Assembly (NCBI GenBank): GCA_903833215.1
Contig: CAILEM010000147.1
Coordinates: forward strand, 1 to 64,000
DNA from: an uncultured Armatimonadota bacterium
GTDB lineage: Bacteria > Armatimonadota > Fimbriimonadia > Fimbriimonadales > Fimbriimonadaceae
DNA: 64,000 nt
Direction of reading: 5' to 3'
Below are positions 619 to 25,587 of this stretch, one piece after another. Position 1 is the first letter of the stretch. The number at the start of each line of letters is the position of its first letter. The notes under the pieces are model-generated. The model did not search any database. It was not told the origin of the DNA and saw only the letters and a list, made by a program, of their open reading frames with translations. The translations under genes were made by a program, and so were the position numbers.

Positions 619-1578
619 CTACAGCGTGACGACTTTGCCCGTCTTAGCACTCTCCAGCGCGGCAAGAGCGATCTTCAAGGCAACCAGGCCGTCTTCGCCA
701 GTAATTGGAACAGGGGAGCCGGTTTGAACACTTGCGAGGAATGCTGATAGTTCTAGGAAATACGGATCATCGAACGGTGCGAGAGACGGTTCGTAGGATG
801 ACGATTCGGTCGTTACCGTTTTGAGCGCGGGGGTTTTCTTGCTATCGAATTCGAGCAGCCCTTCACTTCCCGCGATATCGAAATAGGTTCGAAATCCACC
901 TGGATCCATCCATGTTGCCTCAACGTGAGCAACTGCTCCGGACTCAAAAGTGAGGGTTGTGAGAGCATAGTCTGGTCCGTGACCGGTGGTGGCTCCGACC
1001 GATCGACTGTAGAGGAACTTCACGTCACCAAACGTCCATTGAAGCCAATCGAAGTCATGAATCGCAAGGTCAAGAAGGACTCCACCGCTTCGAGAGTGGT
1101 CCATGAACCACCCTGAGCTGCCCGTCGGTGCCGGTCCCCCACGACGCGTTCGGATCGCAGCAGGTTTGCCGACCGATCCACTTTGCACCATCTGCCTGGC
1201 AAGGGCGAACTCGGGGAAATATCGAACGACGTGACCGATCATGAGAGGCACGTTGGCAGCCTTCGCGGCATCCACAATCGCCTGTGCTGCATCAACCGTT
1301 CTTGCGATGGGCTTCTCTAAGAAAAGGGGTTTTCCAGCCTCAATCACCCTATGCGCAAACTCTGGGTGGGCGTCGGTAGGAAGGCAGACATCGATGACGT
1401 CCGCCCAATCCAGCAGTTCCTCGATGGAATTGCAGAGATGGGCACCCCAGTTTTGGCGAAAAGTCTCACCACGCCCCAAGTTCCTCTCGTAATAACCGAG
1501 TTCAACCTCGGACATTTTGTGATACTGCCGGGCATGTGCATTGCCCATTCCGCCGGTGCCAACGACTCCTACCTTCAT
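619..1578 (-). CDS. Gfo/Idh/MocA family NAD(P)-dependent oxidoreductase
   Basis: This 319-residue protein has an N-terminal Rossmann nucleotide-binding fold with GVVGTGGMG at residues 4-12. The EKP motif of the family (LEKPIA, near residue 88) contributes the conserved active-site lysine. A C-terminal alpha/beta substrate domain contains the DLAIHDFDW segment, which matches the conserved H-D motif region. Members oxidise or reduce sugars, inositols or related cyclic compounds with NAD(P); the substrate here cannot be told from sequence. Its ATG overlaps the stop of rseP as ATGA, so it is the last gene of the dxr-rseP transcription unit, although its function does not obviously relate to isoprenoids or intramembrane proteolysis. 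The hairpin at 558-602 lies just beyond its stop. Confidence 0.9.
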   Translation of the reverse strand: MKVGVVGTGGMGNAHARQYHKMSEVELGYYERNLGRGETFRQNWGAHLCNSIEELLDWADVIDVCLPTDAHPEFAHRVIEAGKPLFLEKPIARTVDAAQAIVDAAKAANVPLMIGHVVRYFPEFALARQMVQSGSVGKPAAIRTRRGGPAPTGSSGWFMDHSRSGGVLLDLAIHDFDWLQWTFGDVKFLYSRSVGATTGHGPDYALTTLTFESGAVAHVEATWMDPGGFRTYFDIAGSEGLLEFDSKKTPALKTVTTESSSYEPSLAPFDDPYFLELSAFLASVQTGSPVPITGEDGLVALKIALAALESAKTGKVVTL

Positions 1579-2903
1579 CGAGGAGATTGTGACACGTCTT
1601 TGGAAGGCGAAGGACGAGCGGTTTTTGAGACGGGCGGATCCTTAGGCGGTGAGTTGTTATCAATCATTCGAGTGATGTCTATGTAGAACACCGAGAGGAT
1701 CAAAACCCCCATGAACGCCATCCCAAACAAGTTCACCAAGTTTTGAACATGCATGCTCAAGCGCCTACCGCGACGGAACATCTCAGCAAAGGCCAACACC
1801 ATCTGGCCACCATCAAGCGGCATCACGGGCAGGAGATTCAGGATGCCTACGGAGATGCTTAGGAGCGCGGCGAGTTCAAATATCGGTGCGATACCAAGCT
1901 TCACGGTCTCGTAAGTGGCCGCCGTAATAGAGAGCGGTCCACCCATCTGATCCTTCACCGTAGATGGGTGCCGAATCATATCCAAAAGTCCGGTAACGGC
2001 TTGGATCGGACGAGAAACCGCCATAGAAACGGCCTGACCAAAATCAACGCTCACTCGTTTCGTTCGGAAGTGCGTGTAGAGCTTGGCTTGAGCTCGCTTG
2101 TCTCCTGTAAATTCCAGACCCGGCCCCAAAACGGGGGATGGATTTTTGTCGAGAACCGGAATCACCGTCAACTCAAGGGGCTTGTCGTCACGGAGAATGC
2201 TGAATTTCAGCCTCTTGTCCGCACTGTCTCTCACGATCACATTGATGTCGTAGAACGACTTTACGGCTTTGCCGTCGATTGCCGTGACAACATCCTTCTC
2301 CTTCAACCCTGCTTCGGCAGCCGGTCCCTTTTTGGAAACGGGCCCGATGACTGGGCTGTTATCGAGTTGATCTTTGCCACTCACGATATACAGCGGAATC
2401 AAGATTAGGATTCCCGCAATCACGCTGAACATCGGGCCAGCGAAGAGTACGATCAGCCTCTGCCAAGGCGCCTTGCTATAGAAGCCTCCTGCGATCGTCG
2501 TCTCACTGCCGTCATCTTCGGGAAGCATTCCCTTGATGCGAACAAATCCTCCGAGGGGCCAAGGACGAACGGTAAATCTAGTCGTTTCCTTAAGCGCCTT
2601 TCCTTGAGGAGTATCAATTTCAACCATGTCCTCCGGAGCCCGACGGCCCGTAGACTCAACATCAAAGCGGTTAGGATTCGTGCTCTCAATCTGCGCGACT
2701 TCACCTGGTCGGATAGGGACGATGTAAGTGCGCTTCATCCATTCGTAAATGGTTTGTTTGCCAAAGCCAATGGCAAATTCCTCAACGCCCATATTGAACA
2801 AACGGGCGAAAAGGTAGTGACCGAGCTCGTGGGCAGCAACGAGCAGGGTGAACATCGTAACTAGCACGACGGCGGTTTCTAGGTAATTAAAAAGCGAGCC
2901 CAT
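1575..2903 (-). CDS. rseP: Site-2 intramembrane zinc metalloprotease RseP/RasP
   Basis: The 442-residue protein starts with a membrane segment holding HELGH (about residues 26-30), the zinc-binding HExxH of M50 proteases. A central PDZ domain includes GPAAEAGLKEKDVVTAIDGK. The C-terminal membrane segment holds NLLPVMPLDGGQ, the LDG motif supplying the third zinc ligand. The family cleaves transmembrane anti-sigma factors and signal-peptide remnants in the inner membrane. It lies 5 nt after dxr, a neighbourhood seen in many bacteria. An ECF sigma / anti-sigma pair at 24-25.5 kb is a possible client, but that is inference. The C-terminus extends about 25 polar residues past the last membrane helix. 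Confidence 0.95.
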   Translation of the reverse strand: MGSLFNYLETAVVLVTMFTLLVAAHELGHYLFARLFNMGVEEFAIGFGKQTIYEWMKRTYIVPIRPGEVAQIESTNPNRFDVESTGRRAPEDMVEIDTPQGKALKETTRFTVRPWPLGGFVRIKGMLPEDDGSETTIAGGFYSKAPWQRLIVLFAGPMFSVIAGILILIPLYIVSGKDQLDNSPVIGPVSKKGPAAEAGLKEKDVVTAIDGKAVKSFYDINVIVRDSADKRLKFSILRDDKPLELTVIPVLDKNPSPVLGPGLEFTGDKRAQAKLYTHFRTKRVSVDFGQAVSMAVSRPIQAVTGLLDMIRHPSTVKDQMGGPLSITAATYETVKLGIAPIFELAALLSISVGILNLLPVMPLDGGQMVLAFAEMFRRGRRLSMHVQNLVNLFGMAFMGVLILSVFYIDITRMIDNNSPPKDPPVSKTARPSPSKDVSQSPR

Positions 2904-21352: not shown

Positions 21353-23077
21353 ATGACTGAACCTATGTCCGCCCGTTGGAATGTGGCGGATAGAAATCGG
21401 ACGGCGGAACAGAAGCTCCAAAACGAATTGGGGATTCCGATTCTTCTCGCCGCCATCCTTGCTCAACGCGGCTATACAGATCCCGAGCAAGCTCATCTTT
21501 TCCTGAATCCTTCCCTGGATCGCCTGCACGCTCCAAACCTGCTTCCGGACTACGAAAAGGCCAGGGATGCGATTCTAGGGGCGAGAGACCGTCAAGAGCT
21601 CATCTATGTCCATGGCGACTACGACGTTGACGGTGTGACCAGCGCAGCCCTCTTCAATCGCTTTCTACAGGCAATCGGCTGTAAGGTTCACACTCATGTT
21701 CCGCACCGCATGAAAGAAGGCTATGGCATTCATGCGATGGCGATCGAGGCTGCCCATGAAGCAGGAGCAAAGTTGTTTCTCACCTGCGACTGCGGCGTTT
21801 CGGCTCACGAGCAGGTTGACCAGGCTCGCGAGAAGGGCATGTCTGTAGTCATCACCGATCACCACTCCATTGCTGGTGAGTTACCCAACGCCACCGCTGT
21901 GGTCAATCCCCATCGAGCTGATTCCGTCTATCCCTTCGACGAGTTGAGTGGGGCCGGTGTGGTCTTCAAACTTTGCGCGGGCATCAGCGATGAACTAGGA
22001 CATGATCGCGAAAAATACTGCCGAGCCTTTTTGGATCTAGCGGCACTCGGAACCATTGCTGACGTGATGCCATTGGTCGGTGAAAATCGTATCATTGCCA
22101 AGTTCGGCCTGATGCGCCTCGCGGACACACGTAAACCTGGACTCAGGGCGCTCATACAAGCTGCAAACATCGCCGTGGAACTCGGTAAACCGCTGAAGGC
22201 TTCGCACGTCGGTTTCCAACTGGGGCCAAGACTCAACGCGGTTGGCAGGATTCGTGATGCGGCTATGGCGCTAAATCTTTTGCTAGAGAACGATCCAACC
22301 GCTGCCGAAGCCCTTGCCAAACAGATTGAATCCGTAAACACGGAGAGGCGTCAAGAGCAACAGCGAGTGATGGATGAGGCGGTTGAAATCGTCCTCTCTA
22401 CCGAGAGCCAGAAGCGCAACGTCATCTTCGTCGCAAAAGAAGGTTGGCACTCAGGGCTCGTCGGAATCGTTGCTGGTCGATTGGTGGAAATGTTCTGCCG
22501 TCCGTCGTTCGTCCTGACAATCGACTCAAAAACTGGCACGGCCAAGGGTTCCGCACGTACCATTCCCGGCTTTAATCTCGCTGATTCGATCCGTGCTCAC
22601 CCTGACCTCATGAGTGGCGGTGGTCATGCCATGGCAGCAGGTTGCTCGCTACCGGCCGAGAACATTGAAAAGGCTGCTGCCGCCCTCGATGTTTATGCTG
22701 GGCAAATGCTGACACCTGAGGACTTCGTGCCGAGCATCCGGGTCGATATGGAGGTGCTTCCCTCCGAAGTCAGCTTGCAGGCAGCAGAATCGCTCACGAA
22801 GCTTGAGCCGTTTGGCTTTGCCAATCCTGAACCCGTTTTCCTTTCACGGGGGATGACGGTGGCTCAAATACTCCCAACTAAGAATCCGATTCACGTTCGC
22901 GTTGTCCTTCAAACAGAATCGGGCTCAACCGTCCCCGGCATCGCGTTCGGAATCGGAGAGCGGCTCACCCAATCGGGGACAGGCATCGGTGCAAACGTGC
23001 TGTTTCAAGCCAATGTCGACGAGTGGAAGGGTGCTCGCACTCTCAAGTGGCAGATCAAAGACTACGCCAAAGCTTAA
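21353..23077 (+). CDS. recJ: Single-stranded-DNA-specific exonuclease RecJ
   Basis: The 574-residue protein is a 5'-3' single-strand exonuclease of DNA repair. The DHH-domain motifs are visible: DYDVDG at residues 89-94 (motif I), the CDCGVS segment (motif II) and DHH at 169-171 (motif III). The DHHA1 domain has SGGGHAMAAGCSLP (consensus GGH.xAAG). An OB-fold domain closes the protein (LEPFGFANPEPVF and after). Length fits RecJ. The start could also be the ATG 4 codons downstream, at 21365. It converges on the HtrA-like gene with overlapping stop codons. Confidence 0.95.
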   Translation: MTEPMSARWNVADRNRTAEQKLQNELGIPILLAAILAQRGYTDPEQAHLFLNPSLDRLHAPNLLPDYEKARDAILGARDRQELIYVHGDYDVDGVTSAALFNRFLQAIGCKVHTHVPHRMKEGYGIHAMAIEAAHEAGAKLFLTCDCGVSAHEQVDQAREKGMSVVITDHHSIAGELPNATAVVNPHRADSVYPFDELSGAGVVFKLCAGISDELGHDREKYCRAFLDLAALGTIADVMPLVGENRIIAKFGLMRLADTRKPGLRALIQAANIAVELGKPLKASHVGFQLGPRLNAVGRIRDAAMALNLLLENDPTAAEALAKQIESVNTERRQEQQRVMDEAVEIVLSTESQKRNVIFVAKEGWHSGLVGIVAGRLVEMFCRPSFVLTIDSKTGTAKGSARTIPGFNLADSIRAHPDLMSGGGHAMAAGCSLPAENIEKAAAALDVYAGQMLTPEDFVPSIRVDMEVLPSEVSLQAAESLTKLEPFGFANPEPVFLSRGMTVAQILPTKNPIHVRVVLQTESGSTVPGIAFGIGERLTQSGTGIGANVLFQANVDEWKGARTLKWQIKDYAKA

Positions 23078-24159
23078 TCAGCAGCTTTCGCAGGCACGAC
23101 GTTGTCGATCAGAATTTTGCCAGGTCCCCTTTGCACAATGATAGAGAAAGGTTGGCCCACCTTCTTTTGCAGCATCACCTTGGCAAACGTGATTTGGTCG
23201 TCGATCGTGGTTCCTCCGATGTTGAGGAGAACGTCCCCCGCTCGAATACCCGCCTTGTCAGCAGGCAAACCAGGGGTGACTTGTTGAATCAAAGCCCCAC
23301 CTCCGACTGCGTCGATACAAAAGATTCCAAGCACAGCAAATTCTGGTTTATGACTCGGCGACAAGAAGCCGTCGACGACATGCCGAACGAAATCGGTACT
23401 GACGGTATAAGCGACCGTCATTTCATTTGGTCCAGCGTTATTGTATTGGGCTCGGCCAGGTCCACCTTGACCAATTGCTTGATTTGCCCCTTGCCCAAAT
23501 CCACCGTTATTATTGTTGAGGGTCCAGCCTTGACCACTGCCAGCCCCTCCGCGCCCACCAAACACGTTCGCTGACCGCTGCATGCCGCTGTCTTGTCCCA
23601 CCAAAGTCGCGTTCAAAGAGCCAATGAGCTCACCAGTCTCTGAGAAGATTAATGCTCCGCCGACAAGTTCGGGAATCGCTTCAAAACGCATTTCCGTGAG
23701 AGGGACCAAGCGTCGGGTCGTATTCATGACTCCGAGTTTGTGCCGGGTGCCATAAGCCAACCGGATAGGACCAGTCGGCAGCGCCGCGATGAGATTGCCA
23801 GACTCGATTTCTCCTGGCTGAGGCATGCGTAGGGGCTGGGCCGAACCTGAAACCCACGAGTTTGTCTTGAGCAAAACCAGCATGGTGGCCTTGTCTTGGC
23901 TGACAATTGAGAAACTGATCTGCTTGCCAATGAAATCTTTACCAACGACTTGGGGCCCTACCACGCTTGAACTGTGGGCGACAAAGTATCCCGAATCATC
24001 GATCAAGGCGGCAACACCGGTCGCATGACCATGGCCAACGAGGGTGACGATGGCGGGACGAATCTGATTCCACACCGACACTTCCTTGCGCGGCAAGCTT
24101 GCCGCCTGGAAGGTGGCTGTACTTAAAACCACCGCGAACTTAGCCGCCGACAAGAACAT
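23074..24159 (-). CDS. HtrA/DegP-like protein with degenerate catalytic triad and PDZ domain
   Basis: This 361-residue protein has a signal-like N-terminus, a trypsin-like domain, a Gly/Asn/Gln-rich insertion (about residues 195-245) and a PDZ domain (about 265-355: GGGALIQQVTPGLPADKAGIRAGDVLLNIGG). Aligned by eye to HtrA, GYFVAHSSSVV (57-67) replaces GYILTNNHVV, so the histidine becomes S64. DKATMLVLLK (89-98) replaces D..TDLAVLK, so the aspartate becomes M93. ELVGGAL (164-170) replaces GNSGGPL, so the serine becomes V166. It is therefore probably proteolytically dead and may bind peptides or sense misfolding. It overlaps the upstream anti-sigma-like gene by 20 nt in the ECF sigma operon, which suggests a regulatory role. 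Confidence 0.85.
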   Translation of the reverse strand: MFLSAAKFAVVLSTATFQAASLPRKEVSVWNQIRPAIVTLVGHGHATGVAALIDDSGYFVAHSSSVVGPQVVGKDFIGKQISFSIVSQDKATMLVLLKTNSWVSGSAQPLRMPQPGEIESGNLIAALPTGPIRLAYGTRHKLGVMNTTRRLVPLTEMRFEAIPELVGGALIFSETGELIGSLNATLVGQDSGMQRSANVFGGRGGAGSGQGWTLNNNNGGFGQGANQAIGQGGPGRAQYNNAGPNEMTVAYTVSTDFVRHVVDGFLSPSHKPEFAVLGIFCIDAVGGGALIQQVTPGLPADKAGIRAGDVLLNIGGTTIDDQITFAKVMLQKKVGQPFSIIVQRGPGKILIDNVVPAKAAD

Positions 24160-24892
24160 TGCTTGAACTACCTACCTCGGTGGCCTTACAGGCACCTGTT
24201 TGCTCATCCTTGTCCTGGTCAATCAACACGATCGACCCCGACGTTTTTAGGCTTGCCGTTCGAGCGCTACTTAGTAGCGATGTCCGGCTCGCGGTCAGGG
24301 TGTTTCCCTTTGGTGGCTGCACACCTAAATCGGGATCATACGCGGCGTCGGTTGGCTCCATCGAAGTGAGGACACGCGGATCGACCTCGTCCATGTCATC
24401 GGGTTGCTTCGCATCGCCTGTTGTCGTTGCGACCGTCGTTGGCGGAGCTGTGGGACCGATGAGAGTACCTGTCGAGAAGTTCTTAGGGATTTCGATAGGA
24501 TGCGAATTTGACAGTCCCAACGACGCCACTTCGGGCCCCATTACGACCTGTGGCAGAGGTTTCTTGTGCGTCAAGTTGAGGGTAAACATGAGGACGAATC
24601 CCATCGCGCAGGCGGTGGCAGGCATCCACAGCCAACTGCGGCTGGAAATCGGTCGAGTAGGCAATGGCTTGAGTCCTTGGGTCAGGATGGCATCGCGAAG
24701 GCGCTCTTTCGAGAACTGGTCTTCGGGGACGTCCGACAGGCTCTTGAGCCCGGCTCGCATATCCTTATAGAGCGACAACGCGCGAAGAGCCTCGGGGTCG
24801 TTTTGGACCTCTCGCTCCAACTTGGCCGCTTCTTCAGGGCTGAGTTCCCCAAACGCGAGCTTCGCTAATTTGTCTTCAATTTTGCCTTTCAT
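24140..24892 (-). CDS. Anti-sigma-factor-like single-pass membrane protein
   Basis: The 250-residue protein has an N-terminal helical domain (LAKLAFGELSPEEAAKLEREVQNDPEALRAL) typical of the cytoplasmic part of anti-sigma factors. No HxxxCxxC zinc ligands are present. One transmembrane helix lies at about residues 87-107, followed by a 140-residue Thr/Ser/Pro-rich outer region with no recognised domain. It starts on the last base of the ECF sigma gene, so the two are translationally coupled. By analogy it would hold the sigma factor at the membrane; release could involve RseP-type proteolysis, which is inference. Confidence 0.8.
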   Translation of the reverse strand: MKGKIEDKLAKLAFGELSPEEAAKLEREVQNDPEALRALSLYKDMRAGLKSLSDVPEDQFSKERLRDAILTQGLKPLPTRPISSRSWLWMPATACAMGFVLMFTLNLTHKKPLPQVVMGPEVASLGLSNSHPIEIPKNFSTGTLIGPTAPPTTVATTTGDAKQPDDMDEVDPRVLTSMEPTDAAYDPDLGVQPPKGNTLTASRTSLLSSARTASLKTSGSIVLIDQDKDEQTGACKATEVGSSSNVLVGG

Positions 24893-25512
24893 TACCTATC
24901 CTCCCCGAGCAACGGGGCAATTCTTTCTTTCAGCGCTCTGCGGGCACGAAGAACGCGTAATTTCGCGCCTCCGTCCGTGCATCCGAGGATGGCGGCCATA
25001 TCGGGGTATTCCCTTTCTTCGATATCGCGCAGGATGATCACTGATTTGTGGTGCATCGGGAGGGCATTGAGTGCCTTTCGCAATGCGATCTTTCTTCGGT
25101 CTGCTTCGAGATTATTAACTGGGTCCTCAATGTCACCGTTGGTCATCCAGTCCAAGGCGCCAGCAGCTTCCTGCTGTTCCAAGGCGGATCTCCGTTGTGA
25201 CATTCGAGCCTGATCCGTGCAGAGGTTGGTAACGATCCGCAGGAGCCAGGTGGTGAACTTTGCTTCATCTCGATAGCGATGTAAATTTTGATACGCCCGA
25301 ACGAATGCTTCTTGCACCACGTCTTCGGCATCATCGCGTCGAGAGGTCATTTGGTAGGCGAAACGATACACGAGGCTTCGGTGACGATCGAACAGCTGTT
25401 CGAAGGCGCGAAAGTCTCCATCTCGCGCTTTTCGAACCAGCGCGACGTCAGTATCCATTTCCATGCGACCACTTAAGGACGCATCGTATCCCATAACTGT
25501 GCTTTCTACCAC
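24892..25512 (-). CDS. RNA polymerase sigma factor, ECF subfamily (RpoE-like)
   Basis: The 206-residue protein has sigma region 2 (FEQLFDRHRSLVYRFAYQMTSRRDDAEDVVQEAFVRAYQNLHRYRDEAKFTTWLLRIVTNLCTDQAR) and region 4 (LPMHHKSVIILRDIEEREYPDMAAILGCTDGGAKLRVLRARRALKERI). The DDAEDVVQE core and FTTWL segment are hallmark. It would direct polymerase to a small regulon, controlled by the downstream membrane protein. In-frame ATGs at 25512, 25494 and a few codons further are alternatives. It is divergent from moaA across a 75-bp gap. Confidence 0.93.
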   Translation of the reverse strand: MVESTVMGYDASLSGRMEMDTDVALVRKARDGDFRAFEQLFDRHRSLVYRFAYQMTSRRDDAEDVVQEAFVRAYQNLHRYRDEAKFTTWLLRIVTNLCTDQARMSQRRSALEQQEAAGALDWMTNGDIEDPVNNLEADRRKIALRKALNALPMHHKSVIILRDIEEREYPDMAAILGCTDGGAKLRVLRARRALKERIAPLLGEDR

Positions 25513-25587
25513 GAACTGGCCCCATTCATTGCGTACACTCTAAAGAACGGACGTTTATTGTTCGTGATCGTTTCTATCGAGCCATAA

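Follow-up and report, generated by a model that had tools for sequence, protein, structure and literature searches.

The analyzed window, a stretch of 64,000 nucleotides (nt) of contig CAILEM010000147.1 from an uncultured Armatimonadota bacterium of the family Fimbriimonadaceae, was found to carry an operon in which the gene for an extracytoplasmic function (ECF) sigma factor is followed by those for an anti-sigma factor and for a protein of the HtrA fold that has lost its catalytic triad. At the level of sequence, the three genes and their arrangement as an operon, the dead HtrA fold, an ECF-type promoter and a conserved tail of the anti-sigma factor were all demonstrated. On this basis, we propose that the operon may constitute an envelope-stress switch in which the non-catalytic HtrA partner would hold the anti-sigma tail and thereby gate its proteolysis, a reading whose chances of being right and wrong we consider about balanced. 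The three open reading frames, all on the minus strand and spanning positions 25512 to 23074, were assigned as follows:

24892–25512, minus strand: ECF sigma factor of 206 amino acids with a GTG start, identified by its Pfam domain matches.
24140–24892, minus strand: anti-sigma factor of 250 amino acids, assigned from weak profile matches, a predicted model and its position in the operon.
23074–24159, minus strand: HtrA-fold protein of 361 amino acids with one PDZ domain, judged catalytically dead from profile, fold and a table of triad positions.
24140–24159, minus strand: overlap of 20 nt between the 3′ end of the anti-sigma gene and the start of the HtrA-like gene, which recurred in most Fimbriimonadaceae loci.

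The original prediction had described an overlapping operon of an ECF sigma factor, an anti-sigma-like membrane protein and an HtrA/PDZ protein, and this description was borne out by the open reading frames, the overlaps and the Pfam matches. The sigma and anti-sigma genes overlap by 1 nt, and the anti-sigma and HtrA-like genes are likely to be translationally coupled via the 20-nt overlap. At the other end of the operon, recJ on the plus strand converges with the HtrA-like gene, their stop codons overlapping at positions 23074–23077.

The active-site positions of the HtrA-like protein were assigned by alignment, in which the segments TNNHVV, DLAVL and GNSGG of active HtrA proteins corresponded to AHSSSV, TMLVLL and ELVGG, respectively:

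23968–23970, minus strand: codon of S64, at the position of the catalytic His.
23881–23883, minus strand: codon of M93, at the position of the catalytic Asp.
23662–23664, minus strand: codon of V166, at the position of the catalytic Ser.

Although the Ser column falls on either V166 or G167, depending on the placement of one gap, the alignment confirmed the earlier claim that all three positions are changed, with S64-M93-V166 standing in place of the His-Asp-Ser triad of an HtrA serine protease. The protein contains His only at positions 43, 45, 62, 140, 260 and 270, and no Ser lies between residues 157 and 172. These positions ruled out a displaced triad, and the claim of a non-catalytic protein thus survived the check for an intact triad elsewhere in the sequence. 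H62, located two positions before the His column, was common in the Fimbriimonadaceae, though not invariant.

The triad was lost in every orthologue of the window protein as well. In a table of 125 distinct proteins, 100 of which are encoded directly behind a sigma gene, His-Asp-Ser was present in only one of the sigma-linked proteins (L080, which belongs to a different operon) and absent from the remaining 99, whereas all 16 unlinked HtrA/trypsin-like controls retained it. Generic HtrA proteins encoded in the genomes that carry the operon keep an intact triad. The other unlinked entries lacking His-Asp-Ser were operon copies severed from their sigma gene by the edge of the stretch, including L201, which proved to be sigma-linked once a longer stretch was read. 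The exceptional locus (L080:1047–3844, G000 contig C8) is a second operon of the genome that the window comes from, comprising a sigma factor, a zinc-finger anti-sigma factor and an HtrA protein with an intact His-Asp-Ser triad and two PDZ domains, and represents a natural active counterpart to the dead-HtrA operon. Among the dead copies, the residues at the triad positions differed between families: they were uniformly Asp/Glu-Asn-Ser, with Ser kept, in f13 and f19 (L171–L177, L180–L182, L188 and L192–L200), Asn-Asp-Ser in f33, Glu/Asp-Gly-Pro/Gln/Ser in f2, mostly Glu-Asp-Gly/Ala/Thr in f5 and mostly Ser-Gln-Gly in f1. The Asp/Glu-Asn-Ser of f13 and f19 could represent either a modified site or one used for binding. 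The loss of His is common to all these families, and the remaining erosion of the triad would have come later.

Despite the lost triad, the domain architecture of the HtrA-like protein was predicted to be maintained:

24100–24159, minus strand: N-terminal hydrophobic helix (residues 1–20; helix 2–20 in the model), a candidate secretion signal or short anchor.
23590–24090, minus strand: trypsin-like (pseudo)protease domain (residues 24–190), identified by the DegP profile match, with predicted local distance difference test (pLDDT) values mostly above 90.
23431–23589, minus strand: low-complexity Gly/Asn/Gln linker (residues 191–243), with pLDDT below 50 for residues 201–233.
23092–23352, minus strand: PDZ domain (about residues 270–356), identified by the PDZ_2 match.

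The window sequence by itself matched only PDZ profiles (PDZ_2, E = 9.6e-11, residues 277–345) and gave no match to Trypsin_2, which was matched by 18 of 44 HtrA-like orthologues. A profile built from these 44 orthologues matched DegP in both the protease domain (independent E-value 4.8e-9) and the PDZ domain. The AlphaFold2 model of the window protein (pLDDT 85.8; predicted template modelling score 0.79) was superimposed over about 270–280 residues on Deg1 (3qo6, Z 23.0), M. tuberculosis HtrA (Z 22.6) and DegS (6ew9, Z 22.1), and the best Foldseek match was MucD (8k2y, E = 6e-18). Profile and model thus agreed on the HtrA/Deg arrangement of a trypsin-like domain followed by a PDZ domain; the suggested comparison with DegS and MucD yielded strong matches to both, in support of the initial view that fold and PDZ domain were kept.

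To place the operon in its lineage, all 113 genomes of the class Fimbriimonadia were searched. Clear HtrA-like orthologues were present in about 100 of them, and the exceptions inspected in detail were contig ends, besides two 1.5-Mb Fimbriimonadaceae genomes (G087 and G088, 97% complete) that had neither the sigma nor the HtrA-like gene, a pattern in line with joint loss of the two. Where contigs were long enough, the orthologous operon was found in practically all Fimbriimonadia, and in the named genomes with such contigs the sigma orthologue was always accompanied by both partners. Beyond the class, families f13, f19 and f33 of other Armatimonadota carried a sigma factor, a zinc-motif anti-sigma factor and a dead HtrA-like protein in the same order, while sigma relatives in other phyla (L133–L150) had no adjoining HtrA-like gene of this type. 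In the phylogenetic tree, the generic HtrA proteins fell on one side of a branch (Shimodaira–Hasegawa-like approximate likelihood ratio test, 99), and a constraint holding the chosen sigma-linked entries together was not rejected (approximately unbiased test, p = 0.42) in a test that counted the sigma-linked L201 as generic. The simplest reading is that catalysis would have been lost anciently, before these families parted.

The sigma factor matched the Pfam domains Sigma70_r2 (E = 1.4e-21) and region 4_2 (E = 4.2e-9), consisted of sigma2 and sigma4 domains only, as is characteristic of ECF sigma factors, and was 66–90% identical to the relatives aligned. Its closest homologues among named records were from Fimbriimonas sp. 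and Fimbriimonadaceae, which places the genome in the genus group of Fimbriimonas; this genus and its relatives are bacteria of soil and water. Promoter boxes with AAC and CGT, together with autoregulation, are hallmarks of ECF sigma factors (PMC8103513), and a corresponding element was located upstream of the sigma gene:

25550–25574, minus strand: predicted autoregulated ECF promoter, GAAAC-N16-CGTC, a motif conserved upstream of orthologous sigma genes.

The motif GWAAC-N16-CGTC preceded the sigma gene in 40 of 45 orthologous operons, so that this hallmark of putative autoregulation is widely kept, compared with a mean of 0.37 and a maximum of 3 in shuffled upstream sequences. When the upstream motif was counted by spacer length, a spacer of 16 occurred in 41 cases and other spacers in 0–3.

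The second protein matched anti-sigma profiles below their cut-off (NF052375, E = 1.2e-5). Its AlphaFold2 model comprised four helices predicted to be cytoplasmic (residues 2–72), a transmembrane helix and disorder up to about residue 218, followed by a structured end:

24569–24643, minus strand: transmembrane helix (residues 84–108), seen as a hydrophobic helix in the AlphaFold2 model.
24143–24235, minus strand: conserved anti-sigma tail (residues 220–250), a proposed docking peptide delineated by BLOSUM conservation and a predicted hairpin, SIVLIDQDKDEQTGACKATEVGSSSNVLVGG.

The zinc motif H-x3-C-x2-C, a hallmark of class I anti-sigma factors, was absent from the window protein but present in orthologues of other families, and was therefore lost in the window lineage. 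The single transmembrane helix, the operon position and the zinc motif of the relatives support the identity as an anti-sigma factor. Its extracytoplasmic part consists of a variable linker of 82–153 residues and then the conserved tail of approximately 30 residues; mean pairwise BLOSUM scores were 1.46 for the tail, 1.36 for the predicted sigma-binding part and −0.03 for the linker. In the model, residues 221–228 and 235–240 of the tail formed a beta hairpin (pLDDT 86–87) within otherwise unstructured surroundings. The consensus in the Fimbriimonadaceae and f5 was P-[IV]-[IV]-[LIV]-I-x4-D-xx-T-G-A-xx-A-T-E-V-x4-[ND]-V-x-[VI]-G-G followed by the stop, and 34 of 40 anti-sigma factors ended in GG. 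The tail was found, in altered form, in every family having the operon: it ended in -(G/C/S)SF or -HSF in f2 and in VE in f19, and in f13 it contained a YV(M/I)G-like strand and terminated mostly in Y or W. Taken together, the endings in related families include -SF, -AY, -PW and -AW. The f2 ending resembles the YxF peptides that are ligands of the DegS PDZ domain (PMC8545111).

The long retention of a dead HtrA beside an anti-sigma factor with a conserved, exported peptide suggested that the two bind to each other, and pointed first to the anti-sigma factor's own tail as the candidate partner of the HtrA-like protein. In the proposed switch, the pseudoprotease would be exported and would recognize the tail, with the former substrate groove accommodating its hydrophobic strand and/or the PDZ domain its free C-terminus. 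By holding the tail without cutting, it would deny a site-1 protease access to the bound anti-sigma factor. The tail would be freed by an envelope signal, perhaps peptides competing in the PDZ domain, upon which the anti-sigma factor would be degraded by another protease and then RseP, leaving the sigma factor free to transcribe its own operon. The PDZ domain may, as originally suggested, act as a sensor of misfolded or envelope peptides. For the later cleavage, a candidate was present in the window:

1575–2903, minus strand: RseP-type site-2 protease (TIGR00054, E = 1.9e-52, over the cut-off).

This gene forms a separate locus, 21 kb from the operon and directly after dxr, and we infer its role in the anti-sigma pathway. 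A broader extension, which we regard as tentative and on the whole doubtful, is that such ECF switches occur phylum-wide and that their HtrA proteins turned from cutters into receptors. The PDZ domain or the dead cleft would then read the C-terminus of the anti-sigma factor, whose ending would have changed by family (-AY/-PW/-AW, -SF, -VGG) while the inactivated site underwent a drift from Asp/Glu-Asn-Ser to Ser-Gln-Gly; competition for the same site would come from envelope peptides.

In its layout, the window operon resembles the RpoE-RseA-RseB/DegS system of E. coli and the AlgU-MucA-MucB/AlgW/MucD system of Pseudomonas, with which it shares an ECF sigma factor, a single-pass anti-sigma factor and an extracytoplasmic operon partner, as well as an HtrA-fold PDZ protein in the pathway and RseP in the genome. 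The window operon differs from these systems in its HtrA-fold protein, which lacks the catalytic residues, and in the conserved tail at the C-terminus of its anti-sigma factor. DegS and AlgW act as site-1 proteases that cleave the anti-sigma factor when their PDZ domain binds a C-terminal YxF or WVF peptide, an activity at odds with the lack of catalytic residues in the window protein. The parallel with MucABCD drawn in the original prediction held for the operon logic, but the proposed mechanism is nearer to that of the shields RseB and MucB than to that of the proteases DegS, AlgW and MucD. The window operon showed no member of the RseB/MucB family, and the likeness of the HtrA-fold partner to RseB is limited to the proposed way of working. 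We prefer a shield because RseB and MucB guard the anti-sigma factors of their systems against the site-1 protease (PMC8545111), and because the signalling domain of FoxA binds the C-terminal part of the anti-sigma factor FoxR and protects it from proteolysis (PMC11637429), although the FoxA partner is an outer-membrane receptor domain and not an HtrA protein. The window protein is further comparable to MamO, a magnetosome HtrA pseudoprotease with a non-catalytic role (PMC4794232), in its fold, degenerate active site and proposed function, but MamO serves in magnetite formation with no sigma factor, whereas the window protein has its place in an ECF operon. The order of sigma, anti-sigma and HtrA genes also occurs in SigE-RseA-HtrA (Rv1221–1223) of M. 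tuberculosis, which we take as a lead only. The HtrA protein of M. tuberculosis ranked with the top fold matches of the window protein. Its annotation is that of a serine protease, and RseA of this species is reported to be degraded by ClpC1P2 (PMC3062566).

Some observations weigh against the proposed switch. The last six residues of the tail lie within the 20-nt gene overlap, so that the conservation of its very end may be partly attributable to the neighboring start, while residues 220–243 lie outside the overlap. A C-terminal Gly-Gly is, moreover, an atypical PDZ ligand. Promoter-like sites in the bacterium's own genome showed no excess over the reversed control (94 vs 116), and the regulon of the sigma factor may therefore be small.

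HtrA proteins are able to bind unfolded polypeptides, and many are controlled by ECF sigma factors. The dead HtrA could accordingly lie on the output side of the stress response, as a periplasmic chaperone or scaffold that binds misfolded envelope proteins without cutting them and is co-transcribed only for induction; htrA/degP is indeed an RpoE target (PMC8103513), and the retained PDZ domain and fold would suit this role. We consider this unlikely, though deserving of serious attention, in that the HtrA-like gene is fixed in third place beside sigma and anti-sigma and overlaps the latter, whereas generic HtrA genes lie elsewhere, and the conserved anti-sigma tail would be left unexplained. 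HtrA proteins also form trimers, and the dead copy might instead be an adaptor that joins an active HtrA, such as that of C8 or C163, the two intact-triad proteins of the same genome, and either activates it or guides it to the anti-sigma factor, whose tail would be passed on as the substrate. MamO sets a precedent by activating MamE-dependent proteolysis without an active site of its own (PMC4794232), but no active HtrA is linked to the dead-HtrA operon, and the polarity, activator or shield, is unreadable from sequence; we judge the adaptor quite improbable.

Hidden catalysis through other residues appeared very unlikely: the uniform [D/E]-N-S of the f13 and f19 operon copies read could perhaps be an altered active site, but the Fimbriimonadaceae, including the window protein, keep none of the three positions, and the residues of the Ser region (PELVGGAL in the window) vary freely. 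Furthermore, an Asn in place of the catalytic Asp normally abolishes activity. The absence of all three triad residues might finally suggest a decaying pseudogene without function. The frame is intact, the operon is the same across the class, all members are dead, and structure and PDZ domain are kept; the concern that this might be a lone pseudogene beside active relatives was not substantiated and was ruled out by conservation. Given the conservation of the operon, decay is far less likely than a non-catalytic role, and we consider its probability negligible.

Pseudoproteases of the HtrA fold, as exemplified by MamO, are already known, as is the involvement of HtrA proteins in ECF pathways, while the literature, which was covered in part, yielded no description of an ECF operon that combines a stably retained dead HtrA with a conserved tail on the anti-sigma factor. 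ECF/anti-sigma pathways with an HtrA protein are usually read as protease pathways, and annotation would mislabel the dead HtrA as a protease. An old, vertically kept pseudoprotease would offer a clear example of a protease converted into a binding protein, in a phylum whose signalling is little known. With the conserved tail, a specific candidate partner site is available for testing, and sigma activity can be read out through the promoter motif.

Variants of the operon were also observed among the other loci. In f33, the sigma-linked HtrA-like protein of L248:1625–4577 (G227), which carries Asn-Asp-Ser, has a C-terminal extension resembling by eye a secretin/STN-type domain. One f2 genome (G059) contained two anti-sigma/HtrA-like pairs on different contigs (L154 and L155). 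A typical Fimbriimonadales operon was present in a record titled Methanoregulaceae archaeon (L090, JADZEW010000008.1), which is probably a mislabelled or mixed metagenome-assembled genome.

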